A DNA stretch of 64,000 nt from Hymenobacter gelipurpurascens (GTDB lineage: Bacteria > Bacteroidota > Bacteroidia > Cytophagales > Hymenobacteraceae). Below, piece by piece: positions 1-64,000 of this stretch (its first letter is position 1; each line of letters opens with the position of its first letter). Both the position numbers and the translations under genes were made by a program. The notes under the pieces are model-generated. The model did not search any database. It was not told where the DNA came from and saw nothing but the letters and a program-made list of their open reading frames with translations. The stretch is from contig NZ_FYEW01000001.1 of the NCBI RefSeq assembly GCF_900187375.1, positions 1,736,001 to 1,800,000 on the forward strand. The letters are read 5' to 3'.

Positions 1-305
1 GTGCTGGTGTGCGTGCCGCCTCAGGACACGCAGTATGACGTGGTGCTTTTGGTGACACCTGCATCCGCTGTGTATCAGGTATCCGTCGGGAGTTTATTGC
101 CTACTGCGCGCCGGTGCGCTGTGCCACTGGCCTACGCGGCTCCTCCTTACCCCCTGACAGAAGTGCGCCAGCTTTCGGCTATCAAGCTGTCTTAAATAGG
201 TATCTGAAAATATTTCTATCCCTCGCGCAACGGTGGCGTGAGTTGGCTGGTCATGGGGGCAGAACGCTAGCGAATACTCCTATTCTTACCTTATCAGATC
301 TGCCT
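1..305. other. Left edge: no supportable gene; region upstream of the sigma factor
   Basis: A frame is open from the first base (GTG) to a stop at 195. It encodes about 64 residues with no recognisable domain, so it may be the 3' end of a truncated gene or chance. The sigma-factor frame also stays open upstream of its chosen start, back to about 114, but that sequence does not look like sigma factor. A copy of the ACTGGCCTA motif lies at 126-134. No clear promoter box was recognised. Confidence 0.3.
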
Positions 306-860
306 ATGGCTGATTCTCTCGATATTATACTGGACGGCTGTCGGCGAGGGAAACCAGCGGCGCAACGGGCTCTCTACGATAAGTTAGGCTACCAGCTGAT
401 GGGCGTATGTCTGCGGTATTGCCCCTCGCGGGTAGAAGCCGAAGACGCCCTGCAGCTGACTTTCGTGAAGATCTTTTCCCGCCTCGATCAGTTCCGGGGG
501 CAGGGGCCGTTCGAGGCCTGGGCCCGACGCATTGCCGTTACTACTTCCCTCAATTTGTGGCACCAGCAGCAGTTGCGCGGAACGCAGGTAGACAGCAACG
601 AGGCCGCCGAACTACAGCACCCCGATGGCACTCCGTTCGATGAGCTCTCAGCGGATGATCTGATCCGGCTCATTAATGCCCTGCCCCCGGGCTACCGGGC
701 AGTGCTCAATCTCTATGCCGTCGAAGGCTACACGCATGCCGAAATAGGTGAGCTGCTAGGCATTTCGGAAGGCACCAGCAAGTCGCAGCTTTTTAGGGCG
801 CGCCGGCTGTTGGAAGAACGACTGACCCTTCAGGCTTCAATCTCCCCTTACCATGACTGA
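306..860 (+). CDS. ECF-type RNA polymerase sigma factor
   Basis: The 184-residue protein has a sigma region 2 (about residues 20-95, with acidic EAEDALQLTF and aromatic promoter-melting residues) and a region 4 helix-turn-helix (about 130-178, including GYTHAEIGELLGISEGTSKS). There is no region 1 or 3, as in the extracytoplasmic-function class. The ATG at 306 was chosen because the upstream in-frame extension does not resemble the family. The stop overlaps the next gene by 8 bases, so the two are probably translationally coupled. By analogy the neighbour should hold this factor inactive at the membrane. The regulon is unknown. Confidence 0.9.
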   Translation: MADSLDIILDGCRRGKPAAQRALYDKLGYQLMGVCLRYCPSRVEAEDALQLTFVKIFSRLDQFRGQGPFEAWARRIAVTTSLNLWHQQQLRGTQVDSNEAAELQHPDGTPFDELSADDLIRLINALPPGYRAVLNLYAVEGYTHAEIGELLGISEGTSKSQLFRARRLLEERLTLQASISPYHD

Positions 861-2412
861 AAACGACTCGGAGAAATTTTACGCGGACCTGCGCGAGAAG
901 CTTGCTGACTACGGAAGTGCCCCACCAGAACTGGTCTGGGAAGGCATTAGGCAGCAAGTGCCCGCCCAGCCGAAGCGCCGCTGGGGGCGGGTGGCCATCT
1001 TGCTGCTCTTGCTTATCACGTCACTGGTCGTGTTTACCACTAGTACCCGGTACTGGCGCCAGGCTACTGGCCTAGGCCAGTCTGCCGCAGGCAAAGCTTC
1101 TGTCCCCTCCCCATCTTCCCGCATAGCCTCATCGGCTAGCCGAGCTGCACAGTCTGGAAATGCGGCAGCGGGTACCACACCAACTCCGGAAGGCTTGGCT
1201 GCGGAGCAGAGTGGCCTAGCAGGCTCACTGGCAGAGACGAACCCTACCGCCACTACTGCTGAGTTGCCGTTGGCAGAAGCCAAAAGAACTCCACGGACCA
1301 GCTTACTGACTAAAGGGATTGTGGCGAGAGACAAGGAAGAAAAAGGCCTGCTCAGGCAGCAATCGGTGGGTACTTCTGATGACAGATCCCGCTCGACTGC
1401 GAAACGTAAGCGGCGAGGCATCCTGTTGGCCGCGCTTCTGCCTTCGCGGCGCTCTACCAGCAGCTCCATGAGTGGCCTACGAGAGCGGCGTGGAACCCAG
1501 CGTACTGGCCTACGAAACGAAACCTCGAAACTGAACCGGAGCCGGTTGGACCGGCTGCGTAACAGGCCAGCCGCCCGGCACCTTTCATCGGAACAACCGG
1601 ATGCCACTAGTTCGGCTACCCGTTTTGCTTCTGTTACCGAGGCCTTTGCCAACCAACAGGCAGAGCAACGATTCAGCAATGAACTGCTAGCGCTGCTGCC
1701 CGTGCAGTTGCAGCTGGATGAGCCCGAAGAGCCGGAGGTACGGCGGGTAAAGCGGCAAAAGGCGCGTCGTTCGCGGGCGGCTCAGCTGCTGCGTGGCTGG
1801 AGCGTGCAGGTGCTGGCCGGTTCCAGCCTCACGTACCGTACCCTCGGTGACTCGGCCCGGCAGGTGGAGCACTTAGAACGGCCCGGCATTGGGTACAGCG
1901 GTCAGCTCATGGCTTCGTATGCGCTCAACAAGCGTCTCACGGTATCTACTGGCCTAGGCTACGCCGAATACGCGAATAATCTGAAATTTCAGGTCAAAAA
2001 AGCCAGTCAGGAAACTGCCCACACAGTGGATTTCCGCGACGTGTACCGCTTCGTGACCGTTCCGTTGCTGGCGCAGTACACGCTGGGCGGCAACCAACGC
2101 TGGCAGTTTGGCACGCAGGGTGGCGGCACGCTAGGCCTGTTGGCCGGCACCCGCACTACGCAGGGCAGCGCCTGCAACTGCAGCCAAGCCACTTCCCCAC
2201 CCGAAGGTACTTACCGCAACACCAGCCTGCTCCTCACGGCCGGCGGCTTCCTGAGCTACCAGTTTGCGCCGGGCCAGTGGCTTACGCTGCGCCCCCAAGG
2301 CAGCTACTTTCTGAACTCCCTCACCGACCCCACCACCGGCAAGGCCACGCGCCACCCCTGGAGCGTGGGCGTGCAGGGCGGCATCTCCTTCGACCTCGAA
2401 CCCAAGAAATAA
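853..2412 (+). CDS. Anti-sigma-like protein fused to an outer-membrane-type barrel domain
   Basis: The 519-residue protein starts with a short acidic and basic cytoplasmic segment (1-45), followed by one hydrophobic helix at about 46-63. A long Ser/Ala/Arg-rich, low-complexity linker spans about 70-300. The C-terminal 200 residues alternate polar and aromatic residues and include ALNKRLTVSTGLGYAEY and LTLRPQGSYFLNSL, typical of PorT/OmpA-like barrel domains of Bacteroidota. Position directly after and overlapping the ECF sigma gene suggests that it sequesters or senses for that factor. No classical anti-sigma zinc motif is visible. The motif copy at 1066-1081 is a perfect 16-base palindrome inside this gene. 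Confidence 0.75.
   Translation: MTENDSEKFYADLREKLADYGSAPPELVWEGIRQQVPAQPKRRWGRVAILLLLLITSLVVFTTSTRYWRQATGLGQSAAGKASVPSPSSRIASSASRAAQSGNAAAGTTPTPEGLAAEQSGLAGSLAETNPTATTAELPLAEAKRTPRTSLLTKGIVARDKEEKGLLRQQSVGTSDDRSRSTAKRKRRGILLAALLPSRRSTSSSMSGLRERRGTQRTGLRNETSKLNRSRLDRLRNRPAARHLSSEQPDATSSATRFASVTEAFANQQAEQRFSNELLALLPVQLQLDEPEEPEVRRVKRQKARRSRAAQLLRGWSVQVLAGSSLTYRTLGDSARQVEHLERPGIGYSGQLMASYALNKRLTVSTGLGYAEYANNLKFQVKKASQETAHTVDFRDVYRFVTVPLLAQYTLGGNQRWQFGTQGGGTLGLLAGTRTTQGSACNCSQATSPPEGTYRNTSLLLTAGGFLSYQFAPGQWLTLRPQGSYFLNSLTDPTTGKATRHPWSVGVQGGISFDLEPKK
1066..1081. repeat. Perfect 16-base palindrome ACTGGCCTAGGCCAGT (iterated motif, full form)
   Basis: This is the complete symmetric form of the motif that recurs through the window as half sites. 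It lies inside a coding region, where it is read as part of Thr-Gly-Leu-Gly-Gln. Other strong palindromic copies are at 4841-4852, 23415-23426, 28907-28934, 31857-31870 and 41792-41805. Confidence 0.9.
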
Positions 2413-2444
2413 TCCTCTATCCTATTCCTCTTCATTTCTGATCT

Positions 2445-3419
2445 ATGTATTCGCTTAAAAACGTACTGCGCGCCACCATTTTGCTGGCCCTGCCCCTACT
2501 GAACAGTTGTGAGCAAGCCCTCGATACGGTTATCTGCGAGGATGGTACCCCAACAGGGCCGGTCGTTCAGCCGCCGGCGCATGATTCCTTAACGGCCCTT
2601 AGCCGTCGGCTGGGCGCGCCACAGCAGTTTTTCACATATGTACCCAATCGGCAGAATACCATTACAGGCCTGAAGGGAACGATCATCACGATTCCTGCCA
2701 ATGCGTTCGTGAAAGCCAGCGGAACACCCGTAACAGAACCGGTTCTATTGGAAGTGCGGGAGGTATTCAGCCGGGCCGAGATGGTGCTGACGGGTACGCC
2801 CACCGTCTCAAATGGGCGGCTGCTGGAATCGGCGGGCGAAATCTTCCTGCAACCCGCCCAAGACAGCAGCCTTCGGCTTTCGCCGCAGGCCACCCTGCAG
2901 TTTCAGACCCAGAACCCGCCGAACCTATCAAGCCCCGACTCCATGCGCCTGTTTGTGGGCAACGGTGGCGGGGGCTGCTTTAATTGGGAGCCAGTGTTTG
3001 ATCCGGGTTCCAGCCTCCGCCCCAATGGCAGTGGGTTTCAGGTGAATGTGAGCAGCGCCCTCTACAATGCCGGAATCGGCTGGTTCAACTGCGACCGTTT
3101 CTACAATAATCCCGATCCGCTGACGGTGGTGGTAGATGTGCCAGGCACCAGCATCGACCCCAAGAACAACACCATGGTGTTTGTGGTATTCCGAAGCTTA
3201 AACGGCAGTTTGCGGGCCTGCACGTTCACGGCGCCCAACACCTTTTCCACCGGGGGCATACCTACTGGCGCCACCGTTGCGGTGGTCGTTATCCGGACGC
3301 TCAATGGGAAGCTGTTCTATGGCCGCCAGGATGGCGCCGTTGCCGCTGGCCTACGCTTCAGCCCCACCATGCGGGAGGTAACAGCTGCCGAACTCAAAGC
3401 AGACTTGAACAGCATTTAA
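2445..3419 (+). CDS. Predicted lipoprotein, function unknown
   Basis: The 324-residue product starts with a short basic N-terminus and a hydrophobic stretch ending in LPLLNSC, with Cys22 as the likely lipidated residue. The mature part begins with a conserved-looking segment in which LKGTIITIPANAF resembles ZU5-like or carboxypeptidase-regulatory folds seen in Bacteroidota surface lipoproteins. That family link is only a guess. It lies 32 bases after the sigma/barrel pair on the same strand and probably belongs to the same transcript, which ends at the hairpin 3437-3486. Confidence 0.7.
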   Translation: MYSLKNVLRATILLALPLLNSCEQALDTVICEDGTPTGPVVQPPAHDSLTALSRRLGAPQQFFTYVPNRQNTITGLKGTIITIPANAFVKASGTPVTEPVLLEVREVFSRAEMVLTGTPTVSNGRLLESAGEIFLQPAQDSSLRLSPQATLQFQTQNPPNLSSPDSMRLFVGNGGGGCFNWEPVFDPGSSLRPNGSGFQVNVSSALYNAGIGWFNCDRFYNNPDPLTVVVDVPGTSIDPKNNTMVFVVFRSLNGSLRACTFTAPNTFSTGGIPTGATVAVVVIRTLNGKLFYGRQDGAVAAGLRFSPTMREVTAAELKADLNSI

Positions 3420-3436
3420 TCGGTGGCGAAGTTCCT

Positions 3437-3486
3437 AAAGGCCTTCTCTGTCTTCCTTGAGCAAGAAGGAGATGGAGAAGGCCTTT
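3437..3486. terminator. Bidirectional terminator between convergent genes
   Basis: AAAGGCCTTCTC and its complement GAGAAGGCCTTT form the outer stem, and CTTCCTT pairs with AAGGAG inside. T runs flank the hairpin. It separates the lipoprotein gene (+) from hutI (-) and could serve both. Confidence 0.8.
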
Positions 3487-3499
3487 TGCGTTACAATAC

Positions 3500-4768
3500 T
3501 TACTCGGGCCGCTCTATGCGCACGCCACCAATAATTACTTCGCGCACCGGGTTTTCGCCGAGCCAGTACGGGATTTCCTGATACGTGGGCACCTCCAACA
3601 GGAGAATATCGGCGCGTTTGCCGGGTTCCAGGCTGCCACATAGCTGCTCCTGGCCAATGGCCCAGGCGGCATTGAGCGTAACGGCCGCAATGGCTTCCAG
3701 CGGCGTCAGGCCCATTTTCAGGCAGGCTACTGCTAGCGCCAGCCACAGGTTTTTGCTGGGGCAGGAACCGGGGTTGAAATCGGTGCTGACGGCTACGGGC
3801 AGGCCGGCGTCGATGAACTGCCGGCCGGGCGCGTATTTCTCCTGGCGCAGAAAAAGCGGCACCAAGGGCAAGAGCACGGCCACGGTGTGCCCATCCGACA
3901 CGTGCGCAATACGCGCGGCGGCTTCGGGCGTCAGGTAGTCGCAGTGGTCAATGCTGGTGGCGCCCAGCGCGGCCGCCATTTCGCAGCCGCCGAGGTCGTG
4001 GAGCTGCTCGGCGTGGATTTTCAGCCGGAAGCCCTGGGCTTTGGCTTTCTGCAGATAACTGCGCGACTGTTCTACTGAGAAAGCGCCTGCCTCGCAGAAA
4101 ATATCCACGAAATCGGCTACACCGTGCAGGGCCGGCAGCACATCGGAAGCCAAAAAATCGAGATACTCTGCAGCACGGCCCTGGAACTCTGGCGGTACTA
4201 CGTGGGCGCCCAGAAACGTGCGCACTACGCGCACCTCCTGGCGGTGGCCGGCAGTACCCGCCGCGCGTACCAGGGCCAACTCCGTTTCGCGGTCGAGGCC
4301 GTAGCCGCTCTTGGCTTCTACCGTCGTGACGCCGTAGTGCCGAAAACCGGCCAGATGGTGCAACGCATTGCGCAGCAGATCTTCTTCCGAAGCGGCCCGC
4401 GTAGCGCGCACGGTGCTCAGGATACCGCCGCCACTGGCCAGAATATCGAGGTAAGCCTCTCCTTTAAGCTTGCGCTGAAACTCATGGGCTCGGTTTCCGC
4501 CAAATACCAGGTGCGTATGGCACTCCACCAGGCCCGGCATCACCACTCGTCCGTGGGCTTCTACAATAGCGGTGCCGCCCGTTACCTGCGCCCGGTCCAG
4601 CTCCTGCATGGGGCCTACGGCCACAATCTGGTCGCCTTCGCAGGCCACGTAGCCATCCGGAATTATGCGCCAATTACGCTGGTCTTCACCGGCTAACGGA
4701 CGATCTGGAGGACCACCCGCCAAGGTTAAGAGCTGCCCACAATGTCGGATGAGGAGAGAGTAGGCCAT
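3500..4768 (-). CDS. hutI: Imidazolonepropionase (histidine degradation)
   Basis: The 422-residue amidohydrolase hydrolyses 4-imidazolone-5-propionate to N-formimino-L-glutamate, the third step of histidine catabolism. Diagnostic motifs are the metal-binding HTH at about 84-86 within VMPGLVECHTHLVFGGNRAHEF, KIHAEQL in the middle, and STDFNPGSCP near residue 320. The length matches the family (about 410). The ATG at 4768 was chosen over an upstream frame extension of 48 codons because it starts the usual beta strand. Urocanase (24955) and formimidoylglutamase (29880) are also on the minus strand but 20-26 kb away. No hutH is seen. Confidence 0.95.
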   Translation of the reverse strand: MAYSLLIRHCGQLLTLAGGPPDRPLAGEDQRNWRIIPDGYVACEGDQIVAVGPMQELDRAQVTGGTAIVEAHGRVVMPGLVECHTHLVFGGNRAHEFQRKLKGEAYLDILASGGGILSTVRATRAASEEDLLRNALHHLAGFRHYGVTTVEAKSGYGLDRETELALVRAAGTAGHRQEVRVVRTFLGAHVVPPEFQGRAAEYLDFLASDVLPALHGVADFVDIFCEAGAFSVEQSRSYLQKAKAQGFRLKIHAEQLHDLGGCEMAAALGATSIDHCDYLTPEAAARIAHVSDGHTVAVLLPLVPLFLRQEKYAPGRQFIDAGLPVAVSTDFNPGSCPSKNLWLALAVACLKMGLTPLEAIAAVTLNAAWAIGQEQLCGSLEPGKRADILLLEVPTYQEIPYWLGENPVREVIIGGVRIERPE

Positions 4769-4840
4769 AGTGTTGGGCGGGTGGTAGAAGTAGGATGGGA
4801 AGAACTTTGTGGGCAGCGCAGTCAGGTAGCGCCCGTGCAG

Positions 4841-4852
4841 TGGCCTAGGCCA
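4841..4852. repeat. Palindromic TGGCCTAGGCCA copy overlapping a stop codon
   Basis: The twelve-base palindrome contains the TAG stop of the methyltransferase gene (complement of 4845-4847) and lies between it and hutI. Confidence 0.85.
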
Positions 4853-5660
4853 GTCGGGGTTTCTCGGCCACCACCGAATATACCATGGGTAGCTTGCCAG
4901 CCAGCGGCGCAATCTGAAACTGACCAGGCGATACTTCTACGGTGTGGGCAAAGCAGTTATAGGGCGAGTAATTATATTCCTGAAAATCAGTCAGCTGCAA
5001 ACCCTGCCGGAGTAAGCTCCCCAGCACTTCGGCTAGCTCGTGGTTCCAGCTTACGGAGATGGTCGTGATGGGTGCCGACCGTTCGGCATAGGTGCCGGTC
5101 TCGGTTTCCCGGATGGTTTCGCGGTTGAAGTAGCTGTACTGAAACTGCGAAAACTCGTTGTCGAACATCCACATCACCGGATGAAATTCTACCAGTATCA
5201 AGCGTCCTCCCGGCTTCAGGTAGCGCGCCACCACGGCGGCCCAGCGGTCCAGGTCGGGCAGCCAGCCCAGCACCCCATACGTGGTGAACACCACATCGAA
5301 GCCGGGCTCGGTGGGCAGATGGTCGGGCAGGCTGTAGAGGTCGCAGCACACGAATTGCGCGGACAACTGCAGTTCCTCTGCCAATCGGCGCGCAGCCACA
5401 ATGGCCTCGTCGGATAAGTCCATGCCCGTCACCTCGGCGCCCATTCGGGCCAGCGAAAGGGTATCCTGCCCGAAATGGCACTGCAGATGCAGCACGCGCT
5501 GGCCGTGCACCTGGCCTAGCAACGCCAGCTCAATCTCTTTCAGCGAGGTCTGACCGGCGCGAAAACCGGCCACATCGTAGAACGTGGAGCGGAGATGATG
5601 CTCGGTCTTGGCGTTCCAGAGCGCACGGTTCAGGTCGAGGTATTCAGGGGATTCGGGCAT
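4845..5660 (-). CDS. Class I SAM-dependent methyltransferase
   Basis: The 271-residue protein has the Rossmann-type SAM-binding motif I as VLHLQCHFGQDTLSLA (about 56-71), the acidic residue after beta-2 in VTGMDLS (Asp81), and later motifs FDVVFTTYGVLGWLPD and LKPGGRLILVEFHP. This fits small-molecule methyltransferases of the Methyltransf_11/25 type. The substrate cannot be read from the sequence. The ATG at 5660 was chosen because the upstream in-frame extension crosses the intergenic spacer. The stop codon is inside the iterated GGCCTAGGCC motif. It is divergent from the 2H phosphoesterase gene. Confidence 0.85.
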   Translation of the reverse strand: MPESPEYLDLNRALWNAKTEHHLRSTFYDVAGFRAGQTSLKEIELALLGQVHGQRVLHLQCHFGQDTLSLARMGAEVTGMDLSDEAIVAARRLAEELQLSAQFVCCDLYSLPDHLPTEPGFDVVFTTYGVLGWLPDLDRWAAVVARYLKPGGRLILVEFHPVMWMFDNEFSQFQYSYFNRETIRETETGTYAERSAPITTISVSWNHELAEVLGSLLRQGLQLTDFQEYNYSPYNCFAHTVEVSPGQFQIAPLAGKLPMVYSVVAEKPRLA

Positions 5661-5740
5661 GGCGAAAGATAAAGGTCTGGGAGGTTTTTCGGTGCAGTTA
5701 GTTACAGTATCGTATTTCCGTAACTCGCCCCCTATCCCGC

Positions 5741-6274
5741 ATGCTTTCACCTCTCTCTGCTCCGCTTATTCTCACGCTGGCCCTCAACCCCGAAGCCCAG
5801 ACACTATTCAACGAGTTGCGGGAGCAGCATTTCCCGCCCGAGCGCAACTATTTACAGGCCCACGTTACATTGTTTCATCATTTACCGGGCCCGGAGCAAC
5901 CGACCATTGAAGCGGAGCTGCAACGCCTGACCAGCACCCACCCGCTGCTGCCGTTGCGGGTCACGGGCCTGCGCTTTCTGGGGCGCGGAGTGGCCTACAA
6001 CCTCGAAAACCCGGTATTGCAGCAGTTGCATAAGCAGCTGCAAACTACCTGGGCCGCCTGGCTTACGCCCCAGGATCAGCAGCGCCTCAAGCCCCACATT
6101 ACGGTCCAGAATAAGGTCGATCCGGGCGTGGCCCGCGCCCTTCATCAGAAGCTACTGGCGCAGTTCGAGCCATTTGAGGCCGTAGGTACTGGCCTACACC
6201 TCTGGGCCTACCGCAACGGGCCGTGGGAGAAGCTACGGGAGTTTCCGTTCAGCAGCGAAACGCTCAACAAGTAA
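5741..6274 (+). CDS. 2H phosphoesterase / 2'-5' RNA ligase family protein
   Basis: The 177-residue protein carries the two His-x-Thr motifs that define the 2H superfamily: HVTLF at 41-45 and HITVQ at 119-123. Members open or form 2',3'-cyclic or 2'-5' phosphodiester bonds in RNA or small nucleotides. The real substrate is unknown. The length fits the family. The gene is divergent from the methyltransferase and ends at a shared terminator. Confidence 0.88.
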   Translation: MLSPLSAPLILTLALNPEAQTLFNELREQHFPPERNYLQAHVTLFHHLPGPEQPTIEAELQRLTSTHPLLPLRVTGLRFLGRGVAYNLENPVLQQLHKQLQTTWAAWLTPQDQQRLKPHITVQNKVDPGVARALHQKLLAQFEPFEAVGTGLHLWAYRNGPWEKLREFPFSSETLNK

Positions 6275-6309
6275 AAGTGGTCATGCTTTGACTCAGCATG
6301 ACCACTTTT
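6273..6309. terminator. Bidirectional hairpin terminator
   Basis: AAAAGTGGTCATGCT (6273-6287) pairs perfectly with AGCATGACCACTTTT (6295-6309) around a 7-base loop. The A and T tracts at the two ends let it act on both convergent transcripts. Confidence 0.9.
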
Positions 6310-6333
6310 CCCAGTACTCTATTTGGGTTTACA

Positions 6334-7269
6334 TTACTTTTTGCGGGCCGAGATGGTGTGCGTCAGGGACTTGAACTGGCCTATGGCCGTTTCGAAATCC
6401 TGACGGGCTAAGCCCTGCATAGCCACGGCGGTGTTGCCAATGATAGTCACCTGCTGATACAGCAGTACGCGCTGGCCCTGCATCTGCCCAAACCCTTCCG
6501 TCTCGTAGGTCAGTAGGTCGTTGATTTTCGACGACGACATTTTGCGGGCCGTAAAACCCGTAAAGCCAAACCGCGTGAGGGTGCTCAGCAGCTCGTTGCT
6601 GATGTCGGCGGCCGTGAGGGAGGGGTTGTAGGGCAAGGGCGTTACGGTAAGCAGGGGCTCCATGCCGTAGTCGTCCTTTTTCTGGCCACCCAGGGCATAC
6701 ACGTAGAGGTTAGACGTGGTTTTGGCAAAAGCCAGCGGCGACTTCTTTTCATCGAAAGCAAAGACGGCCTTTGCGAAAGGGTCGGAGGCCAGATTCTTCT
6801 GATACGTGGCCGAGAGCAAGGCCTGACGGATGGCTGTTCCGGTCGTTGCATCAGCAGTTGGGTACACTCCCACCAGCTGCACCGCGAAGGTAGAATCGCC
6901 GAACATAAGCTGCATTGACTCCTGGGTGGGCGAGTTCTGCACCCGGGCTAGCCGGGCCGGGTAGCCCTGCACCGTCAGTTCCTCAAACGCCAGCACCTTC
7001 AGCCCGCGCGCCTCAAACCGAGCCTTCCCGAAGGAAGCCGCATTTCTGAAATAATTACTGCCCGTCAGGTCGTACACCTGAATAGCTGCGTCGCCTTTTC
7101 GAACGCCGGTAAAGCCTGGCGCGGGCCCGAACCCCTCGGGCGGCACCAGCACTACGTGCGTGCCCGGCACCAGCCGCGGCACCGCCGCCGACTGTGCAAG
7201 CGCAGCCCCCGCCGAAATGGCCAGAAATCCGAAAATCAAAAAAGGTGCAAAAAAACGCGTCATATTCAT
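6334..7269 (-). CDS. Secreted protein of unknown function
   Basis: The 311-residue product has a signal peptide ending near ALAQ (residue about 26) and no other hydrophobic segment. The rest is mixed alpha/beta without a motif that I recognise. ATG codons at 7269 and 7263 are both possible, and upstream codons run through the terminator of the BLUF gene. It is the last gene before the convergent terminator at 6273-6309. Confidence 0.7.
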   Translation of the reverse strand: MNMTRFFAPFLIFGFLAISAGAALAQSAAVPRLVPGTHVVLVPPEGFGPAPGFTGVRKGDAAIQVYDLTGSNYFRNAASFGKARFEARGLKVLAFEELTVQGYPARLARVQNSPTQESMQLMFGDSTFAVQLVGVYPTADATTGTAIRQALLSATYQKNLASDPFAKAVFAFDEKKSPLAFAKTTSNLYVYALGGQKKDDYGMEPLLTVTPLPYNPSLTAADISNELLSTLTRFGFTGFTARKMSSSKINDLLTYETEGFGQMQGQRVLLYQQVTIIGNTAVAMQGLARQDFETAIGQFKSLTHTISARKK

Positions 7270-7280
7270 GGCAAACAAAG

Positions 7281-7318
7281 AAAAAGCCCGCTGCACCTTT
7301 TCAGGTGCGCAGCGGGGC
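7281..7318 (-). terminator. Terminator downstream of the BLUF gene
   Basis: On the minus strand GCCCCGCTGCGCACC pairs with GGTGCAGCGGGC around a GAAAA-type loop, followed by TTTTTC. It ends only 12 bases before the ATG of the secreted-protein gene, so that gene either has its promoter inside the hairpin region or is reached by read-through. Confidence 0.75.
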
Positions 7319-7362
7319 GCAAGGTAGGCAGGAAATGACGGGGGCACTATTTCCGGCCGGGC

Positions 7363-7797
7363 CTAGGCCAGCACAGGATGGAGAGCCACAAAGTTGAGCA
7401 GGAGTTGCATGAGGGCCGGACTGGCATTGCGCGCGCGCGGCAACGGGAACAAGGGGTTCTCGGGGTCTACGTAGCCCGTGATGCGGCGCAACTCTTCGGG
7501 CATAGCCGCTACAAAGCCCATGCTCCAATCAGGGAACTGCCGGCCGGCCACGGGCATATCCACCAGCGTCAGGACTTGGTGGTGGCGGGAGTCCTGGCGA
7601 ATGAGGGCATACAGGTCGCGTACTACTTGCTCCTCGCCTTCCAGCACCTGCACCACGCGCCCATCGGCATACAGCAGAATTCCGGTAATTCGCAGACGGT
7701 GATTCTTGGCGCGGGCCTGCACCAGCAACTCCGTCAGCTGCTCCTGGGTGGGCAGCGTGATGAAGCGGCTGATGTACACAATCTGATGGATATTCAT
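7363..7797 (-). CDS. Short BLUF-domain blue-light photoreceptor
   Basis: Nearly the whole 144-residue protein is one BLUF domain that binds FAD and changes its hydrogen bonding in blue light. The flavin-switch residues are present: Tyr8 in QIVYIS, Asn32 in KNHRL, Gln50 in VVQVLEGE, and Trp91/Met93 in DWSMGF. There is no output domain, so it must act through a partner protein or complex, as the short BLUF proteins do. The stop codon lies in the iterated motif GCCTAGGCCA. A second short BLUF gene is at 18195-18623. Confidence 0.93.
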   Translation of the reverse strand: MNIHQIVYISRFITLPTQEQLTELLVQARAKNHRLRITGILLYADGRVVQVLEGEEQVVRDLYALIRQDSRHHQVLTLVDMPVAGRQFPDWSMGFVAAMPEELRRITGYVDPENPLFPLPRARNASPALMQLLLNFVALHPVLA

Positions 7798-7876
7798 GGG
7801 AAACAGGGTAATAACCGTCGGGTATAACTTCGGCTAGCGCATTACCGTTCCTTGCCGGAGCTAGCTGAGCCGCCCG

Positions 7877-10518: not shown

Positions 10519-10533
10519 TCTGGCTTCAGGAAT

Positions 10534-56176: not shown

Positions 56177-58093
56177 GTGGTAGAACAGGCAGTTTGGAGC
56201 TGGAATAAGAGCTTATTTACTTGCCTACTGATGTATCCACTACTACTATTTGGCGCCGTATCCTGGGCCGTGCCGGCCGATGCTGGCTACGATTTCTATT
56301 CCTTGTTCTACGTGCTGGCGTTTGGCCTCAACCTACTGCTGTTGGTGGCGGAAGGCCGGCGACGGGGCTACCCCCTGCGGCCCTGGCTGGTAGTGCTGGC
56401 CTGCACTACGCTCGCATTTATTCTGGGCACCAAGCTTCTGGCGTTTTCCGGCCGGGAGTGGCGCGGCCTCCTGACTACCGGCTACTGGCCTAGCACGGAA
56501 GCGCGCACCGTATTGGGCGGAGCGCTGGCCGGCACGCTCACGCTGCTGGCCCTGCGGCGGCCCTTTGGGTTTAGCTGGCACGTCTTCGATGCCTTTACGC
56601 TCCCCATGTGCGCGGCCCTGGCGGTGCAGTGCATAGGCTGTGTACTCACAGGCTGCTGCTTCGGCGAGCCTACCGCAGGCAGCTGGGGCCTCACCTACCC
56701 ACCCGATACACTGCCCTACTTGGTACAGCAGGCTCAGGGGTTGCTGCCGTTGGGAGCGGCCCGGTCCTTGCCCGTGCACCCCACGCAACTTTACTCGCTC
56801 GGGCTGTGCGTGGCTGTGGGGCTTGTGCTCCTCCTGACGCGCCACCGCCGGTGGCCGGGCGGTAGCCGCCGCCTCTTGCATCTAGGCCTGTTGCTGACGG
56901 GGCGCTTTCTGATTGAGTTTTGGCGCGACCCTGCTGGCGAGCAGGTTGGGGCTGCCTTGCACACGCACGGTGGGCTGGTTCTTAAGCAAGTGCAATGGAC
57001 GTTGCTAGTGTTGGCTCCGGCCGCACTGGGCCTGTGGGGCTGGCTGTTGCATCGGCCCAAACACCACAACCTGCAGCCGGAGCAGCTTCCCACCCAATTC
57101 CCGGCGCGCAACCTGTTGGCCGTGGCGGCTTTGCTGGCCCTTACGGCCTGGCTGGGGCCCCTGTCCCTCACGCTCCCGGAAGTTGTCGTCGTCAAGACGT
57201 TGCTGCTGACGGTGCTCGTGCTGGAAGGTGGCGCGCTGCTGCTGGGTGCGGCGGGCTCGGCCCAACCGTTTCGCGTGGCTCTTCCTCTCGGTTTGGCCTG
57301 CACGGTACTGATACTCAGCAGCCAAGCCCCTGCCGATTCTACTACCGGCCATGGGCGCGAAAAATACACTACGCTCAGCGGCAGCCTGAGCTTGGGCAAC
57401 TTCCGGCGCGAACAAAACCTTGGGGGCGGCTGCAACGGCTCCTCGCCCTTGCTGGCCTACCGCCACCGCTACGCTACCGGCACCCTCGATCTTGCCGTTA
57501 CGGAGCTTCCGGGGGTTGATGAGGACGGCGACATGCACAAGGCCGAGACGACGATAGGCGTGCGGGTGCACACCGGCGCCGACCAGCAAACCCCCACCGG
57601 CGACCCACAGCCCTACACGTATGACGCCGACCGCCTCTCTTTCCTGATTGGCCTGAACCCGTATGTGCAGCTAGACCGCAAATGGCTGGGCATGGGCATC
57701 GGGTTCATGGTAGGCAACCTGGGCTACCACCGCCTGTACTACGGAGATAAGCAGAGCCTACTGGATCTGCAGACTTCCCTCCGTTTCGGCGACCGGCAGG
57801 TGGCCTACGCCATTGCCGATTACAACTACCTGGGTTACGGCACCGCCAATCCACAGCATCGGTTCGGAGTGGGTACTGGATTTGGGGGCACGCGGTGGCA
57901 GCTGGTCGGCGGGGCCGCTTCGGCCAAAACCTACGACGTTTCCAGCGGCCAGAACCGTTGGTCGGGCTTTTTGGAAGCTCAGGGGCGGTTTACACCGCAG
58001 TGGCAGGCCAGCACGTTTCTGGTGCTAGGCAACCCTCACCAACAGCAGGTGGGCTTGCGACTGGGCTATCGGTTCCCGCCGAAAACCCGCTAA
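56177..58093 (+). CDS. Lgt-like diacylglyceryl transferase domain fused to a beta-rich C-terminus
   Basis: The 638-residue protein begins with about seven hydrophobic helices matching prolipoprotein diacylglyceryl transferase (CIGCVLTGCCFGEPT where Lgt has its GRxGNF-type segment, VHPTQLYSL, RFLIEFWRDP). Further helices span about 300-395. The last 230 residues (from about 410) have alternating polar and aromatic strands ending in VGLRLGYRFPP, like a barrel or beta-domain. The start may be this GTG or the ATG at 56231. A true Lgt activity is doubtful, because the catalytic region is divergent. Confidence 0.75.
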   Translation: MVEQAVWSWNKSLFTCLLMYPLLLFGAVSWAVPADAGYDFYSLFYVLAFGLNLLLLVAEGRRRGYPLRPWLVVLACTTLAFILGTKLLAFSGREWRGLLTTGYWPSTEARTVLGGALAGTLTLLALRRPFGFSWHVFDAFTLPMCAALAVQCIGCVLTGCCFGEPTAGSWGLTYPPDTLPYLVQQAQGLLPLGAARSLPVHPTQLYSLGLCVAVGLVLLLTRHRRWPGGSRRLLHLGLLLTGRFLIEFWRDPAGEQVGAALHTHGGLVLKQVQWTLLVLAPAALGLWGWLLHRPKHHNLQPEQLPTQFPARNLLAVAALLALTAWLGPLSLTLPEVVVVKTLLLTVLVLEGGALLLGAAGSAQPFRVALPLGLACTVLILSSQAPADSTTGHGREKYTTLSGSLSLGNFRREQNLGGGCNGSSPLLAYRHRYATGTLDLAVTELPGVDEDGDMHKAETTIGVRVHTGADQQTPTGDPQPYTYDADRLSFLIGLNPYVQLDRKWLGMGIGFMVGNLGYHRLYYGDKQSLLDLQTSLRFGDRQVAYAIADYNYLGYGTANPQHRFGVGTGFGGTRWQLVGGAASAKTYDVSSGQNRWSGFLEAQGRFTPQWQASTFLVLGNPHQQQVGLRLGYRFPPKTR

Positions 58094-58200
58094 TAGGTAT
58101 TGGCAACGCACCTTCAGCTTCTTTTCACCTGTTGAGCATTGGCGACACTGGCCTATTCCTGCTCCAGGCGGGCCTGCACCAATGAGCAGGCCGGTAAAAC

Positions 58201-58233
58201 AACTCAGCGCGGCCTTTCGGGCCGCGCTGAGTT
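58201..58233. terminator. Bidirectional terminator
   Basis: AACTCAGCGCGGCC (58201-58214) pairs perfectly with GGCCGCGCTGAGTT (58220-58233) around TTTCG. It separates the convergent Lgt-like (+) and aldehyde dehydrogenase (-) genes. Confidence 0.9.
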
Positions 58234-58257
58234 GGTAAGCAGAATATATAGACTGGC

Positions 58258-59796
58258 CTAAATCTTCTCCGGCAGCCGGGTGGCATCCTCGAAGTTGCCC
58301 AGAATCGATTTTTCACCTTCCGTTACGGCCTCCACGAGCAGCGCACCGCCCACAAAAGCACCCTTCCACGACTCGCCCAGGCCACCAAATACCTCTTCCC
58401 GGTCGCCACGCGAGCGGAGTTTATTGATGCCCATCTTGAAGGCACGCACTTCCTTGGCGGTGCGCGCCGCCCACTTCTCGTCATCAGAGGCCAGCGCCCC
58501 TACCAAGGCTCCGTTCGAGATGTTCATTTCGCCTACCAGTTCCTCCACGCGGTCTACCAGCACAATGGAGTCAATGGGGCCGAAGGGCTCCTTGAAGTAT
58601 AGCTCGCTTTGGCGAGGCAGATTTACGAGGGCGCGGGGCGCGCGGTAAGCCGAGCGGTCCTGGCCGGGCAGGAACAGGCTATCATCGAGCTTACCCTCGA
58701 AAATAGGCGTAGCGCCAGTTTTCAGGGCGTTTTCGTAGAGGCGGTCCAGATCTTCGGCCTGCGCTTTATTGATTACGGGTCCAAAGGCCAGATCCGGCAG
58801 CTTGTCGTCGGCGCTGTCTACGAGCGTGGGGTTGCCGACTTTCAGGCCCTTGATGGTGTTCCAGTAGGTTTCCACGAACTGCGGAAACAGGCGGCGCTCC
58901 ACCACAAACCGCACGTAGGCCGTGCAGCGCTGCTTGCCGTAGTCGTAGCCCTTCTTGAGCTGATCGGCTAGGCCATCCCAGTCGCTGTAGTTCCAGATGC
59001 CGTAGGTGTTCACGCCTTCCATTTCCAGCATGTAGCGCTTGTGCACGGAGCCCAGGGCATCAGCAATGTTGCGGCCGTTGTAGCGGCCACCTACGAAGCT
59101 GAGGCAGTCTACTGCTTCATTCTTCACCAGCACGTCGCTCAGCTCACCGCCCGAGCCACTCACCAACGTAACGGGCAGGCCGCAGCGACGAGCAATGGCG
59201 AAGGTCAGGCTCAGGGAAATGAAGCCGCCATCGGTAGGTGTTTTGGCAATAACCGAGTTGCCACATAGGGCCTGCACCAGCACCGCGTGCAGCAGCACCG
59301 ACATAGGGTAGTTCCAGGAAGCAATGTTGCTGACCAAGCCTAGCGGCTCGCGCTGGCCCAGCATGCCTTCAATATTATCGACATACCACTGCACGCCCTC
59401 GATAGCGCGGTCGATGTCGGTGAAGCCCAACTTATAGGTTTTGCCAATCTCCCAGATCAGTAGTTTGCCCACGAGGTCTACCTGGTCGCGCAGTTGGTTG
59501 AGGCAGTCCTGCACGCGGCGCTTACGCTCATCCAGGTCTACGGCGGCCCAGGCAGCGGCTTCCTGCTTGGCAAACTGCACGGCGCGCACGGCGGTGTCAT
59601 GGTCGAGCATGGGCAGCGAGCCAATATCGGAGCCATCTACGGGCGAGGTAAACGGGCGGGGCTTACCGGGCTCCTGCCACCGGCCTTCCATGAGGTTCAG
59701 GAACTTGCCGTCCTGCGTGAATACTTCCGGAGTGATGGATTTCATCTGGCTCAGCAGACCGCCGAACTCAACCTGGGGCGAAACGATTTTGGTCAT
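58258..59796 (-). CDS. Divergent aldehyde dehydrogenase
   Basis: The 512-residue NAD(P)-dependent dehydrogenase has the catalytic Cys291 in GKQRCTAY, a Glu candidate at 258/260 (MLEMEG), and Asn162 in IASWNYPMS. Many usual ALDH segments (LELGGKSP and so on) are changed, so it belongs to a divergent branch and its aldehyde is unknown. The ATG at 59796 was chosen as the clean start. It is followed by its terminator, and the stop lies in the TAGGCC motif. Confidence 0.85.
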   Translation of the reverse strand: MTKIVSPQVEFGGLLSQMKSITPEVFTQDGKFLNLMEGRWQEPGKPRPFTSPVDGSDIGSLPMLDHDTAVRAVQFAKQEAAAWAAVDLDERKRRVQDCLNQLRDQVDLVGKLLIWEIGKTYKLGFTDIDRAIEGVQWYVDNIEGMLGQREPLGLVSNIASWNYPMSVLLHAVLVQALCGNSVIAKTPTDGGFISLSLTFAIARRCGLPVTLVSGSGGELSDVLVKNEAVDCLSFVGGRYNGRNIADALGSVHKRYMLEMEGVNTYGIWNYSDWDGLADQLKKGYDYGKQRCTAYVRFVVERRLFPQFVETYWNTIKGLKVGNPTLVDSADDKLPDLAFGPVINKAQAEDLDRLYENALKTGATPIFEGKLDDSLFLPGQDRSAYRAPRALVNLPRQSELYFKEPFGPIDSIVLVDRVEELVGEMNISNGALVGALASDDEKWAARTAKEVRAFKMGINKLRSRGDREEVFGGLGESWKGAFVGGALLVEAVTEGEKSILGNFEDATRLPEKI

Positions 59797-59889
59797 GGCA
59801 AAGAGAGAAGCAGCCGACAACAGCTGCGTGCTGTAGTTGTGCTCCCTAAAGAAGGTTCTTTTTTGAATTGTTTGCGAACAGGGAGTGGC

Positions 59890-60942
59890 CTAGCGGGCAG
59901 CTTCCGAGGTTTGAGCAGCAAGTACCGGAACCTCTGGAACCGCTTTAGCGCAGGCCAGCAACCGATTAACCAGCTCCGGCGAGCCAATATAGAGCGGAGC
60001 CCGCTGATGAAAATCAGTAGGCTCAATATCCAGCACTTCCTCCGTGCCAGCCATGGCCAGGCCACCGGCCTGCTCAATGAGGAAAGCCAGCGGGTAGCCT
60101 TCATACAGCAGGCGCAGCTTGCCCTGGGGCGTTTTGCGCGTGGGCGGATACAAGTAAATGCCGCCCGTAAACAGATTGCGGTGATAGTCGGCTACGAGGG
60201 AGCCCACGTACCGGCCGCTCATGGTTTGCTCCTTGCACTGCATGAGAAAGTCGCGCACGTACTGCGGATAGTCGAACCAGTAGCCTTCGTTGCAGGAAAA
60301 CACGTTGCCGGTGGCCGGAATGGTGATGCTGGGATGAGACAGGAAGAACTCCCCCAGCGAGTTTTCATACGTGAAGCCGACCACGCCGTGCCCGGTAGTA
60401 TACACCAGCATGGTGCTGGAGCCATACAGTATGTAGCCGGCCGCAATTTGTCGGCGGCCACCCTGTAGAAAGTCTTCCCGCGTAGCCTCCTGCCCTACCT
60501 CCGACACGCGCCGGTAGATGCTGAAGATAGTCCCGATGCTGATGTTGACATCGATGTTCGAGGAGCCATCCAGTGGGTCAATGGCCACCACGTATTTGCC
60601 CTGGCAGTTGCCGGTGTGGATGATGTCGTCCTCCTCCTCTGAGAGAACAGCACAGGCCTCGCCCCCATTGGTGAGAGCCCGGATAAAGCGGATATTGGCT
60701 TCTACATCGAGCTTTTGCTGCGCCTCGCCCTGCACGTTCTGCTGGCCCATAGCGCCGATGATGCTGGTCAGGCCAGCCCGGTTTACCTCCCGGTTTACGA
60801 TTTTTCCGGCCAGCGCAATGTCGCGCAGCAGCTGCGACAACTCGCCCGTGGCGTACGCAAACTCAGACTGCTTGCGCATGATGTAGCGCTCCAGCGTAGT
60901 GCCAACTGGCTGGGCCAGTGCGTTTTCGCGACTAATACTCAT
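59890..60942 (-). CDS. fbp: Class 1 fructose-1,6-bisphosphatase
   Basis: The 350-residue Mg-dependent phosphatase runs gluconeogenesis from fructose-1,6-bisphosphate to fructose-6-phosphate. Family motifs include AVLSEEEDD (metal ligands), VAIDPLDGSSNIDVN and GGIYLYPPTRK. GKLRLLYEGYPLAFLIEQAGG is the conserved C-terminal segment. It lies beside, but not necessarily with, the ALDH gene. The stop is in TGGCCTAG. Confidence 0.96.
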   Translation of the reverse strand: MSISRENALAQPVGTTLERYIMRKQSEFAYATGELSQLLRDIALAGKIVNREVNRAGLTSIIGAMGQQNVQGEAQQKLDVEANIRFIRALTNGGEACAVLSEEEDDIIHTGNCQGKYVVAIDPLDGSSNIDVNISIGTIFSIYRRVSEVGQEATREDFLQGGRRQIAAGYILYGSSTMLVYTTGHGVVGFTYENSLGEFFLSHPSITIPATGNVFSCNEGYWFDYPQYVRDFLMQCKEQTMSGRYVGSLVADYHRNLFTGGIYLYPPTRKTPQGKLRLLYEGYPLAFLIEQAGGLAMAGTEEVLDIEPTDFHQRAPLYIGSPELVNRLLACAKAVPEVPVLAAQTSEAAR

Positions 60943-61131
60943 ATACCAGAAAGGAAATAAAAGGGTGTATGCGGAAGCGCGGCGGCTTCCCGATGCTTGT
61001 GGCCCCTAACCTCCACGCCCACCAGTAGGCCGCCGCTTTTCTGCGTCGTATTTTGAATATCACATAGAAAAACACTGGCCTAGGGCTCCCTAACCAGCAT
61101 CTATTCCTTAAACTAACTTGCGCGAAGTGGC

Positions 61132-61605
61132 CTAGCTTTTGGCTTCAGGCTGTTTCTGCGACTGCCACAGCACTACCTGCCAGCCCTTCTTGGGGTCTTT
61201 CACCTGCACCACCACATATTTCAGGTGCGCAATGTTGGGCGTGCCGTCGGGTTTGTTGGGCTGGTAAATAGTAATAGTCCCATTCACTACGGCTGCTTTG
61301 CCGTCGTTGTAGGCCCGCACGTTCAGGGCTTCCACGTCGATCTTATCGTACACACTTTTGCCATCCCGAATGGACTGGATGTACTCCTGCTTGTTGTTCT
61401 GGTGGCCGTTGGAGTGTGTGTATACCAGGTCATCGGCAAATACCTTCTCCAGCACAGTGTAATCCTTTTTCACCTGAGCTTCGAAACGTTGGCGTTCCAG
61501 CGCTTCTACTTCTTTGGCCGCTGCCACGTCTTTCTTGGATTGAGCGAACATACTAACAGGCACAGCCAACAAGGCCAGCAGCAAAAGCAAAGCTGATTTT
61601 TTCAT
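61132..61605 (-). CDS. Secreted NTF2-like / DUF4440 protein
   Basis: The 157-residue product has a signal peptide (cleavage near MFAQ) and a cone-fold of the NTF2/SnoaL superfamily (EALERQRFEAQVKKDYTVLEKVFADDLVYTHSNGH). Function is unknown. Its stop is in TGGCCTAG. It lies 20 bases after the MFS gene and may be cotranscribed with it. Confidence 0.8.
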   Translation of the reverse strand: MKKSALLLLLALLAVPVSMFAQSKKDVAAAKEVEALERQRFEAQVKKDYTVLEKVFADDLVYTHSNGHQNNKQEYIQSIRDGKSVYDKIDVEALNVRAYNDGKAAVVNGTITIYQPNKPDGTPNIAHLKYVVVQVKDPKKGWQVVLWQSQKQPEAKS

Positions 61606-61625
61606 AGCGCGAGGAGAGAAAGGAA

Positions 61626-62987
61626 TTAGTGAGCCGCCGATGTTGAGGCAGTTTCGTCGAGGTTGATTTGCTTCATGGTAGGCGCCAAGAAGTGCATCAG
61701 CACCCAGGCCAGCAGGTAGGCTCCACCGCAAATCCAGAACATTATAAAATAGGCCTTGTCGAGCTGGCCGATGCTCTCATAGTACACGAACATGCGCTTC
61801 TGCACCAGCGCCGACAGCACAATACCTCCCATACCACCGGCCATACCCCCGATGCCCGTAACGGACGCCACGGCACGCTTCGGGAACATATCCGATACGG
61901 TGGTAAAGATGTTCGCGCTCCAGGCTTGGTGTGCCGCGGCCGCAATGCCAATCACGAGCACCGCCAGCCACATGTTTACCTGGCCTAGACGCTGGGCAAA
62001 CACAATCGGGAACACGCAGAGGGCAATCAGCAGCATGGAGGTTTTGCGAGCTTTGAAAGCCGGCATACCATGCTTAATGAAGTTCAGCGGAATCCAGCCG
62101 CCGCCCACGCTACCAATGCTGGAGAGCATGTACACCATGGCCACGGGCAAGGCAATATCAGTGCCTTTGAGGCCGTACTGCTTGCTCAGGAAATCGGGCA
62201 ACCAGAACAAGTAGAACCACCAGATAGGATCGGTCAGGAACTTGCCGAGCACGAAGCCCCAGGTCTGCCGAAACGTGAGCAGCTTAAACCACGAAACCTT
62301 AGGCTGGGTGGTGATGGAAGCCGCCGCCATATCATCCACATCACTGTGGATATACTCGAACTCAGCCTTCGTGAGCTTAGCGTGCTTGGCTGGCACTTCG
62401 TACAGCACAAACCAGAGCACCAGCCACACAAACCCCAGCGCGCCGGTAATGACAAAAGCCCATTTCCAGCCCCAGGTTTCAGCAATCCACGGCACGGTGA
62501 GCGGCGCAATGATAGCGCCCACGTTGGAGCCCGAGTTGAAAATGCCCGTAGCCAGTGCCCGCTCCTTCTGCGGAAACCACTCGGCGGTGGTTTTGATGGC
62601 AGCGGGGAAGTTGCCGGCCTCTGTTACGCCCAAAAAGGCCCGCGCCACACTGAAACCCAGCGTACTGCTGACCAAGGCATGCCCGATGGCGGCCAGACTC
62701 CACAGGAAAGTAGACAGGGCATAACCCATCTTAGTCCCCAGCTTATCGATAATGCGCCCCACCCCCAGCATACCCAACGAGTAGGCCAGTTTGAAAGCAA
62801 TTTCGATGTTGGCATAGTCGCCGGCGTTCCAGTGGAACTCGGTTTCGAGGTACGGCTTCAGCAGGGAAATAACCGCTCGGTCGAGGTAATTGACCGTGGT
62901 AGCGAAGAACACCAGCGAGCAGATGGTCCAGCGGTACTTCCCGATACCGGTGGCGGTTGCCGGTGCAGCAGAAGTGGTTTGTATCAT
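61626..62987 (-). CDS. MFS transporter, hexuronate (ExuT-like) type
   Basis: The 453-residue protein has twelve hydrophobic helices and the ACS-family signatures NYLDRAVISLLKPYLETEF, GRIIDKLGTKMGY and FLGVTEAGNFPAAIKTTAEWFPQKERA. Given that kdgA and a sugar kinase are just upstream on the same strand, galacturonate or glucuronate is the likely substrate. It is the third gene of the catabolic block, 80 bases after kdgA. Confidence 0.88.
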   Translation of the reverse strand: MIQTTSAAPATATGIGKYRWTICSLVFFATTVNYLDRAVISLLKPYLETEFHWNAGDYANIEIAFKLAYSLGMLGVGRIIDKLGTKMGYALSTFLWSLAAIGHALVSSTLGFSVARAFLGVTEAGNFPAAIKTTAEWFPQKERALATGIFNSGSNVGAIIAPLTVPWIAETWGWKWAFVITGALGFVWLVLWFVLYEVPAKHAKLTKAEFEYIHSDVDDMAAASITTQPKVSWFKLLTFRQTWGFVLGKFLTDPIWWFYLFWLPDFLSKQYGLKGTDIALPVAMVYMLSSIGSVGGGWIPLNFIKHGMPAFKARKTSMLLIALCVFPIVFAQRLGQVNMWLAVLVIGIAAAAHQAWSANIFTTVSDMFPKRAVASVTGIGGMAGGMGGIVLSALVQKRMFVYYESIGQLDKAYFIMFWICGGAYLLAWVLMHFLAPTMKQINLDETASTSAAH

Positions 62988-63067
62988 AGAGGTCGGGCTG
63001 AATGCGGTGGGAGAAATTCAGGAACCGAAAGAGGCAGGCGCTAGGCCACTCTGTTTCGGCTTGGCGT

Positions 63068-63724
63068 TTACTTCTGAAGCGTTTTCACAAACTGCAGCAG
63101 GTGGGAAATCTGCTGGCTGAAGGCCTGGGTGTCATCAACGTTTTTGAAGAGCTGGGAACCCATCCCGACCACGTTTACGCCCGCTGCAAACCATTCGCGC
63201 AGGCTTTCTTCGGTCGGCTCCACGCCGCCCGTTACCATCAGAGGCACCGTAGGCATGGGGCCGCGCAGGCTCTTGACGAAGCCCGGACCTACCACGTTGC
63301 CGGGGAAGATTTTGACGATGGCGGCGCCCATTTTCGTGGCCTGGTACACCTCGCTCACGGTCATGGTGCCGGGCAGCCAGGGCGTGCCGTGCTTTCGGCA
63401 TACTTCCGCTACTTCAGCCGTCAGGCAGGGCTGTACCACAAAATCGGCGCCGACCTGAATGAAGCGCTCCGCATCCTCAGCGGTGTAAATAGTGCCGATA
63501 CCGAGTAGCATATCGGGGCAGTTCTCCTTCACAAAAGGAACCAGCGCCGAGAAAACATCGAAAGCATTAGAGCCTCGGTTCGTGAATTCAAACACGCGTA
63601 GACCACCTGCGTAGCACGCCTGCAGAATACGCTGGGCGTACGCCACATCGGCGTGATAGAATACTGGCACAATGGGCGTACCCAGTACGATGGTTTGAAT
63701 ATCAGCGGCGGAGAAGCGAGGCAT
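63068..63724 (-). CDS. kdgA: 2-dehydro-3-deoxy-phosphogluconate aldolase
   Basis: The 218-residue class I aldolase splits KDPG to pyruvate and glyceraldehyde-3-phosphate. Glu46 (VFEFTNRG) and the Schiff-base Lys138 (IVKIFPGN) are in place. It follows the sugar kinase gene by 58 bases, so the two form the KDG kinase-aldolase end of uronate degradation. The symbol eda would apply equally. Confidence 0.92.
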   Translation of the reverse strand: MPRFSAADIQTIVLGTPIVPVFYHADVAYAQRILQACYAGGLRVFEFTNRGSNAFDVFSALVPFVKENCPDMLLGIGTIYTAEDAERFIQVGADFVVQPCLTAEVAEVCRKHGTPWLPGTMTVSEVYQATKMGAAIVKIFPGNVVGPGFVKSLRGPMPTVPLMVTGGVEPTEESLREWFAAGVNVVGMGSQLFKNVDDTQAFSQQISHLLQFVKTLQK

Positions 63725-63782
63725 TGAAAAGCAGATTATCGTTTGTTAGGCTACTACTGGCCTAGAAGAAGGTCAGATGTAT

Positions 63783-64000
63783 TTACCGAAGCAGGCGGCC
63801 CGAAGTGTTCCCAGCCACAATGTGTTCCACTTCGGCGGCTGTCACTAGGTTTATGTCGCCGTGAATGGTGTGCTTGAGGGCCGAAGCAGCAGTAGCAAAC
63901 GTGAGGGCTTCCGCTACAGTGGCGTATTTCTGGCTACCATAGATGAAGCCGGATATAAATGAGTCGCCGCCGCCAATGCGGTCTACCACGGGGTTAATGT
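63783..64000 (-). CDS. PfkB-family sugar kinase, 3' part only (probable KDG kinase)
   Basis: The open frame runs off the window edge. The visible 72 residues hold the PfkB signature around the catalytic Asp (DRIGGGDSFISGFIYG) and a C-terminal helix. Given the aldolase and uronate transporter after it, 2-dehydro-3-deoxygluconate is the expected substrate. The N-terminal part is missing, so the substrate cannot be checked by motif. Confidence 0.8.
   Translation of the reverse strand, partial: INPVVDRIGGGDSFISGFIYGSQKYATVAEALTFATAASALKHTIHGDINLVTAAEVEHIVAGNTSGRLLR

Follow-up and report, generated by a model that had tools for sequence, protein, structure and literature searches.

The window examined here is a 64,000-nucleotide stretch of Hymenobacter gelipurpurascens (G000:C1:1736001-1800000; genome G000, 5,060,948 bp in 9 contigs), and its subject is a short word built on GGCCTA that recurs both in predicted genes and in the spacers between them. 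Counting on both strands revealed 173 copies of GGCCTA in the window, where 100 dinucleotide-preserving shuffles gave 45.6 on average and never more than 62; the enrichment described in an earlier note on this DNA was thereby upheld, although its hand count of about 150 and its expectation of 35-40 were both slightly low. The form (A/G)(C/G)TGGCCTA accounts for 95 of the 173 copies, and the two dominant 9-mers, previously put at about 38 and 30 copies, were counted 39 (ACTGGCCTA) and 31 times (AGTGGCCTA), next to 18 copies of GGTGGCCTA and 7 of GCTGGCCTA. Written as ASTGGCCTA (S = C or G), the word is present 70 times, compared with 1.1 in the shuffles:

126..63764, both strands: the set of 70 ASTGGCCTA copies within the 173 of GGCCTA, first copy at 126-134 (+), last at 63756-63764 (+)

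The word is genuine and genome-wide. Exact pattern matching, with the word read backwards as control, gave 2,100 + 2,085 = 4,185 copies of ASTGGCCTA in the 5.06-Mb genome and 24 + 25 = 49 of the reversed pattern, so that the enrichment claimed for the window stands at the scale of the genome; for ASTGGCCTAS the counts were 2,012 + 2,016, with 10 + 13 for the control. Direct examination of the sequence covered about 805 kb of G000 including the window, some 16%, and samples of up to 320 kb in other genomes.

Consensus and mismatch tolerance

The flanks of 977 copies of GGCCTA, a set that includes the loci L009 and L016 and the small contigs, favour A (47%), S (77%) and T (60%) or A (27%) upstream and S (88%) downstream, giving a consensus of about A-S-T-GGCC-TA-S, which is 9-10 letters long and non-palindromic; outside it only weak base preferences were seen, such as G at 42% at the next position. 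These flanks do not combine at random, as ACTGGCCTAG was observed 101 times against 13.6 expected with independent GGCC flanks. This test, like those of orientation, codon shuffling and pair spacing reported below, was carried out leaving aside L009, L016 and the small contigs.

Analysis of 600 kb of G000 showed single near-misses within GGCC to be close to background (observed/expected 75/64, 52/64, 95/64 and 91/64), while the T and TA positions were partly tolerant of mismatches. In 664 kb, the over-representation of ASTGGCCTAS at 0, 1, 2 and 3 mismatches was 99.6, 3.5, 0.21 and 0, a 28-fold drop at the first mismatch. Among three shuffled control words, one was depleted, one lay near zero and one showed a weak excess (1.95, 0.69, 0.35 and 0.16).

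Placement in genes and spacers

With genes called by a simple codon-usage script, SWGGCCTAS (W = A or T) was found in 15 loci (344 kb) 386 times in predicted genes (1.44 per kb), 206 times between genes (2.69 per kb) and 30 times across gene ends, the intergenic density thus being about twice the genic one. This split agrees with the earlier description of copies in both orientations inside genes, at gene ends and in spacers. Coding copies favoured two same-strand frames (114 and 109 of 233), corresponding to Thr/Ser-Gly-Leu and Val/Leu-Ala-Tyr type codons, as had been noted, and this preference is what one would expect if the word were an artefact of codon usage or of a longer sequence present in several copies. 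Against this, shuffling synonymous codons within genes left 62 ± 8 SWGGCCTAS where 386 were observed, the density is higher between genes, and base preferences beyond the motif are weak. Codon usage, which the earlier note had named as a possible refutation, was therefore rejected as the sole cause, and we regard an artefact of this sort as hardly credible.

When strands were assigned from local GC skew, the orientation of the word along the chromosome was unbiased across the 15 loci (345 vs 385, p 0.15), so that the suggested check of strand and replichore bias returned a balanced result. Copies 0-6 bp apart were found in excess (26 vs 5) and represent the overlapping palindrome TGGCCTAGGCCA, as which two inverted copies can overlap although the single motif is non-palindromic. 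Three examples lie in the window:

1066..1081: composite palindrome around GGCCTAGGCC, with ACTGGCCTA at 1066-1074 (+) and 1073-1081 (-)
4839..4854: composite palindrome, second example, AGTGGCCTA at 4839-4847 (+) and ACTGGCCTA at 4846-4854 (-)
28913..28928: composite palindrome, third example, AGTGGCCTA at 28913-28921 (+) and 28920-28928 (-)

Separately, the window holds at 27156-27665 (-) an open frame with low-complexity Val/Pro repeats near its start, which marks a repeat-rich stretch.

Distribution along the genome

Sampled copies of the word are more evenly spread than expected by chance and than control words. For TGGCCTA and WGGCCTAS the variance/mean ratio was 0.23 and 0.16 in an initial set of 17 windows (20 kb each), and over all 33 such windows it was 0.37 (p 0.0004) and 0.33 (p 0.00015), respectively, while five distinct control words gave 0.90-1.67. 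Gaps between copies were near-exponential (coefficient of variation 0.96-0.99), and the evenness is therefore visible over kilobases and not as a fixed spacing. These ratios were obtained leaving out L009, L016 and L235-L238, by an island exclusion rule set after the results for L009 and L016 had been seen, and with contigs C5-C9 never included; L238 is word-rich and was excluded solely since it had been chosen to locate the island edge.

Low densities were seen in particular regions of the sample. The 20-kb loci L009 and L237 (G000:C1:1400001-1440000) hold 7 and 2 copies of TGGCCTA, compared with 37 in the neighbouring L238, and together they probably represent an acquired island of at least 40 kb. 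Three samples of the 285-kb contig C4 gave 9, 4 and 15 copies, and this contig is a probable plasmid or integrated element. By eye, oxidoreductases and AraC-type regulators were identified in L237. On C4, L235 (G000:C4:100001-120000; 7672-9781 and 15123-16277) carries, again by eye, two neighbouring tyrosine-recombinase-like genes, a helicase-like gene and a retron-like reverse-transcriptase-like gene. Low word density marks recently acquired DNA in carrier genomes.

Carriers of the word and conservation of its sites

A search of 120 other genomes of the genus revealed three further carriers with 3,506 (G018), 2,302 (G137) and 3,339 (G141) copies of ASTGGCCTAS, whereas the other 117 hold 17 to 119 each. 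In a FastTree phylogeny of 20 genomes, based on 3,273 alignment columns of eight proteins encoded in the syntenic region around ComEC, G000, G018, G137 and G141 form one clade with support 1.0, which the word-free G002 and G007 adjoin with 0.99.

With a window protein that by eye resembles malate:quinone oxidoreductase as query, the first matches were in Hymenobacter genomes, H. fodinae at 92%. Over 39.7 kb of the window that align with the carrier H. fodinae at 79.6% identity, 40 of 65 SWGGCCTAS sites are kept, and among 361 six-mers ranked by conservation (median 0.33) CTAGGC came first and GGCCTA fourth. In five word-poor named relatives, 4 of 91 sites were kept, the same window sites being recounted for each relative, a fraction lower than the identity of six-mers in general (0.20-0.22). 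A corresponding comparison of 14 genes around ComEC covered 11 of the 19 other genomes. Out of 18 sites, G018 retains 9, G141 11 and G137 8, at a six-mer identity of 0.32; the eight non-carriers retain between 0 and 5, at 0.20-0.25. From this difference between carriers and non-carriers we concluded that the bulk of the copies originated on the carrier branch, are retained beyond expectation and still turn over. G137, a single contig of 4.88 Mb that may be either gaining or losing the word, has about half the density of G000 (0.79 vs 1.48 perfect copies per kb). The excess of near-misses relative to perfect copies is 1.09 in G137, 0.97 in G141, whose density is intermediate, and 0.70 in G000.

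An even spread, a sharp consensus, the lack of orientation bias and conservation above other six-mers would also suit the binding site of a nucleoid-associated or repair protein, many regularly spaced copies of which would be kept by selection. Protein binding alone, however, supplies no force that writes thousands of sites, and the step from near background to thousands in one clade, with no excess in sister species and other words in relatives, speaks against this explanation, for which the scarcity in the island would say merely that sites need time to arise. We consider this candidate of the earlier note unlikely.

Competence genes and methyltransferases

ComEC was found in 21 of 22 Hymenobacter genomes, carriers and non-carriers alike, the lone miss being a genome that is 82% complete, and was thus ruled out as a discriminator between the two groups. 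The gene order of its neighbourhood is common to 20 genomes by homology, and no gene that tracks the word was seen there, domains not having been scanned.

The word could alternatively be led by a DNA methyltransferase, as has been proposed for the highly iterated palindrome HIP1 of cyanobacteria. GGCC is a common methylation site, and the GGCC core of the word is nearly invariant. Among the four carriers, however, the three families searched matched in two (PF00145, C5, missing from G000), none (PF02086, D12) and one (PF01555, N6_N4), so that none of them is common to all four, and the word is non-palindromic; both points weigh against the highly iterated palindrome listed as a candidate in the earlier note. 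HIP1 itself does provide a precedent, being linked to orphan methyltransferases in the available part of the source, which describes a palindrome that is the same in its described carriers (PMC4390886). Overall, we judge an origin led by methylation to be quite unlikely.

Bacteroidota offer two precedents for an uptake system. In Riemerella, natural competence is described, in the sections available, as requiring ComEC, DprA, ComF and RecA together with four proteins to which the known machineries have no homologue (PMC8459023). A preference for self DNA has been described in R. columbina, and the candidate words named by the authors in the accessible text are all AT-rich (PMC7965970). By title and abstract, no report of a word like that of Hymenobacter was found for Bacteroidota in the open-licence literature, and the available portions of two papers (PMC5217627, PMC8565304) do not mention one.

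Frequent words in relatives

Other genomes are rich in other words. GGGTAGGS reaches 1,650 to 5,674 copies in 14 of the 120 other genus genomes (G026, G070, G014, G034, G096, G098, G114 and seven others), the next highest genome having 1,030, and the six of the 14 that are in the tree fall in two separate parts. In G033 the frequent word is CCTAGG[GT]. Beyond the genus, CCTAGGT was found 32 times against 1.9 in one locus of Solirubrum (L069), AAGTATA occurs genome-wide 6,185 to 10,614 times in four Pontibacter genomes (L082, L086, L110, L119; reversed 328-499), and ACGTAGC 6,259 and 10,552 times in two Spirosoma genomes (L112, L125; reversed 955 and 1,191). A density of 0.6-1.6 per kb in genes, and a higher one between genes, recurs in all ten sets examined. 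Filimonas TACCGGC and some further words reached a moderate score, and AAGGTGA of Segetibacter koreensis (L093; 58 copies in one locus) was dropped, being part of a longer, regularly repeated unit whose conserved bases reach well beyond the 7-mer. The various words have a TA step in common, an observation that is used here in support of nothing.

GGGTAGG is strand-skewed in two sampled genomes (172:79 and 139:89) and is found mostly on the strand opposite that of the gene (132:42 and 131:35), from which it follows that the skew may stem from the genes and their coding constraint. Evenness finds no support in the GGGTAGG genomes: the variance/mean ratio was 3.63 over 10 windows of G026, and the 0.62 from 9 windows of G098 compares with 0.37 for a control word in that genome. 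Polar recombination or segregation signals such as Chi and the FtsK-orienting polar sequences (KOPS) are short, frequent, non-palindromic, chromosome-specific and polar along the replichore, and the word of the window could be a signal of this class, sharing all of these properties but the last. The skewed GGGTAGG, which we take to resemble the KOPS consensus in its letters, fits as well; its copies, counted as GGGTAGGS, are presumably far above KOPS numbers. On the other side, the word of the window showed no orientation bias by local GC skew, the skew of GGGTAGG may be owed to genes, and the enrichment here is far above that of Chi. We therefore find a Chi- or KOPS-like signal improbable.

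Interpretation

The abundance of the word, its sharp consensus, its balance in orientation, its evenness, its scarcity in the island and the probable plasmid, its conservation with turnover within the clade and the words of the relatives are direct observations. Thousands of copies in one clade and near-background numbers in its sisters, spread evenly and scarce in new DNA, call for a force that copies words, and biased uptake followed by recombination is a known force of this kind. As ComEC is near-universal in the 22 genomes and the carriers have no match to a PilB/PilT-type ATPase, a pilus-independent uptake word is proposed: we give an even chance to (A)STGGCCTAS serving one Hymenobacter clade as a self-recognition word of the DNA-uptake type, built by biased uptake and recombination. 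More tentatively, with the balance tilted slightly against it, the words of several Cytophagales (Hymenobacter, Solirubrum, Pontibacter and Spirosoma) may all reflect pilus-independent, sequence-specific uptake with a word that changes from clade to clade and rewrites genomes by molecular drive, which would form a third lineage of uptake words beside Neisseriaceae and Pasteurellaceae.

In the proposed mechanism, a part of a competence system that works without pili, located on the cell surface or in the periplasm, would bind word-bearing DNA and import it, and the imported DNA would pass ComEC and recombine at homologous places. If word-bearing fragments were imported more often, alleles with the word would displace alleles without it, and the word would accumulate everywhere but in newly acquired DNA. 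If one word per fragment sufficed, the drive would be strongest where words are scarce, and the density would be evened out; a shift in receptor specificity would then slowly rewrite the genome with a new word and give rise to clade-specific words. Uptake, a receptor, the drive and the same purpose for the other words are what we infer. For Haemophilus, uptake of long fragments is nearly equal as long as they carry one word or more, according to the part of the study available (PMC7811141), and by our own reasoning such near-equal uptake fits evenness over kilobases.

Several results weigh against this proposal. None of the uptake genes examined (ComEC, DUF5689 and the pilus ATPase) tracks the word, and no word-specific uptake receptor was found in the carriers, ComP itself not having been searched. 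Known uptake words work with type IV pili, and PF00437, the PilB/PilT-type ATPase family, was unmatched in all four carriers (G000, G018, G137 and G141); it matched in 12 of the 120 other genus genomes, over the cut-off only in G009, G011 and G081. DUF5689, which occurs as a domain in a competence protein of Riemerella, is present in one carrier only (G018) and absent from G000, G137 and G141, with matches in 44 of the 120 other genomes; it was set aside as a receptor marker, and both loci inspected show it behind a gene that by eye looks SusD-like. Inverted pairs 21-60 bp apart showed no clear excess (25 inverted vs 24 direct). Evenness is present but weaker than the first sample implied, with ratios in 15 fresh windows of 0.50 (one-sided p 0.065) and 0.36 (p 0.014) for the two words. 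GGGTAGG, strand-skewed and uneven in G026, may be another kind of word, and a literature search by title and abstract found no report of natural transformation of Hymenobacter. The DNA-uptake sequence, also among the candidates of the earlier note, thus gains from the anatomy of the word (non-palindromic, in both orientations, with its spacing, evenness, scarcity in acquired DNA, mismatch profile and clade-specific words) and loses on the machinery, where no receptor was found, the PilB/PilT-type ATPase is absent from the carriers and ComEC does not discriminate.

Uptake words have been documented in two families of Proteobacteria, and the reason for their existence is still debated. If the proposal holds, clade-specific words in another phylum, with carriers beside word-free sisters, would offer a way to test directly how words of this type originate, spread and disappear, and might point to the DNA importer of Bacteroidota. 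Should the uptake interpretation be wrong, a word that has rewritten whole chromosomes still needs explaining.

Comparison with known systems

In being a short word highly repeated chromosome-wide, in and between genes, the Hymenobacter word resembles HIP1 (GCGATCGC), but HIP1 is palindromic and linked to methyltransferases in the accessible text (PMC4390886), whereas the present word is not palindromic and shares none of the three tested families among its carriers. It differs from Chi and KOPS in that these are polar along the replichore and the word of the window is not.

The closest comparison is with the DNA uptake sequence (DUS) of Neisseriaceae and the uptake signal sequence (USS) of Pasteurellaceae. 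Inverted pairs of known uptake words 21-60 bp apart are usual at terminators, common and not obligatory, and the Hymenobacter word differs in having no clear excess of such spaced pairs. It also belongs to another phylum, its carriers have no match to a pilus ATPase, and uptake is here a matter of inference. Like DUS and USS, it is about 9-12 bases long, non-palindromic and present in thousands of copies in both orientations, at about one per 0.6-1.2 kb, compared with a USS spacing of about 1,000 bp in the available part of the source (PMC7811141). Over-representation falls with mismatch load in all of these words, steadily so in Haemophilus and Neisseria, with initial drops of 92- and 82-fold in the portion of the study available (PMC1939737) that are steeper than the 28-fold drop here. 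Finally, the clade-specific words, here with turnover together with conservation above background, recall the 'dialects' of Neisseriaceae, which, as far as the accessible text describes them, have a common core and track the core-genome tree (PMC3630211).

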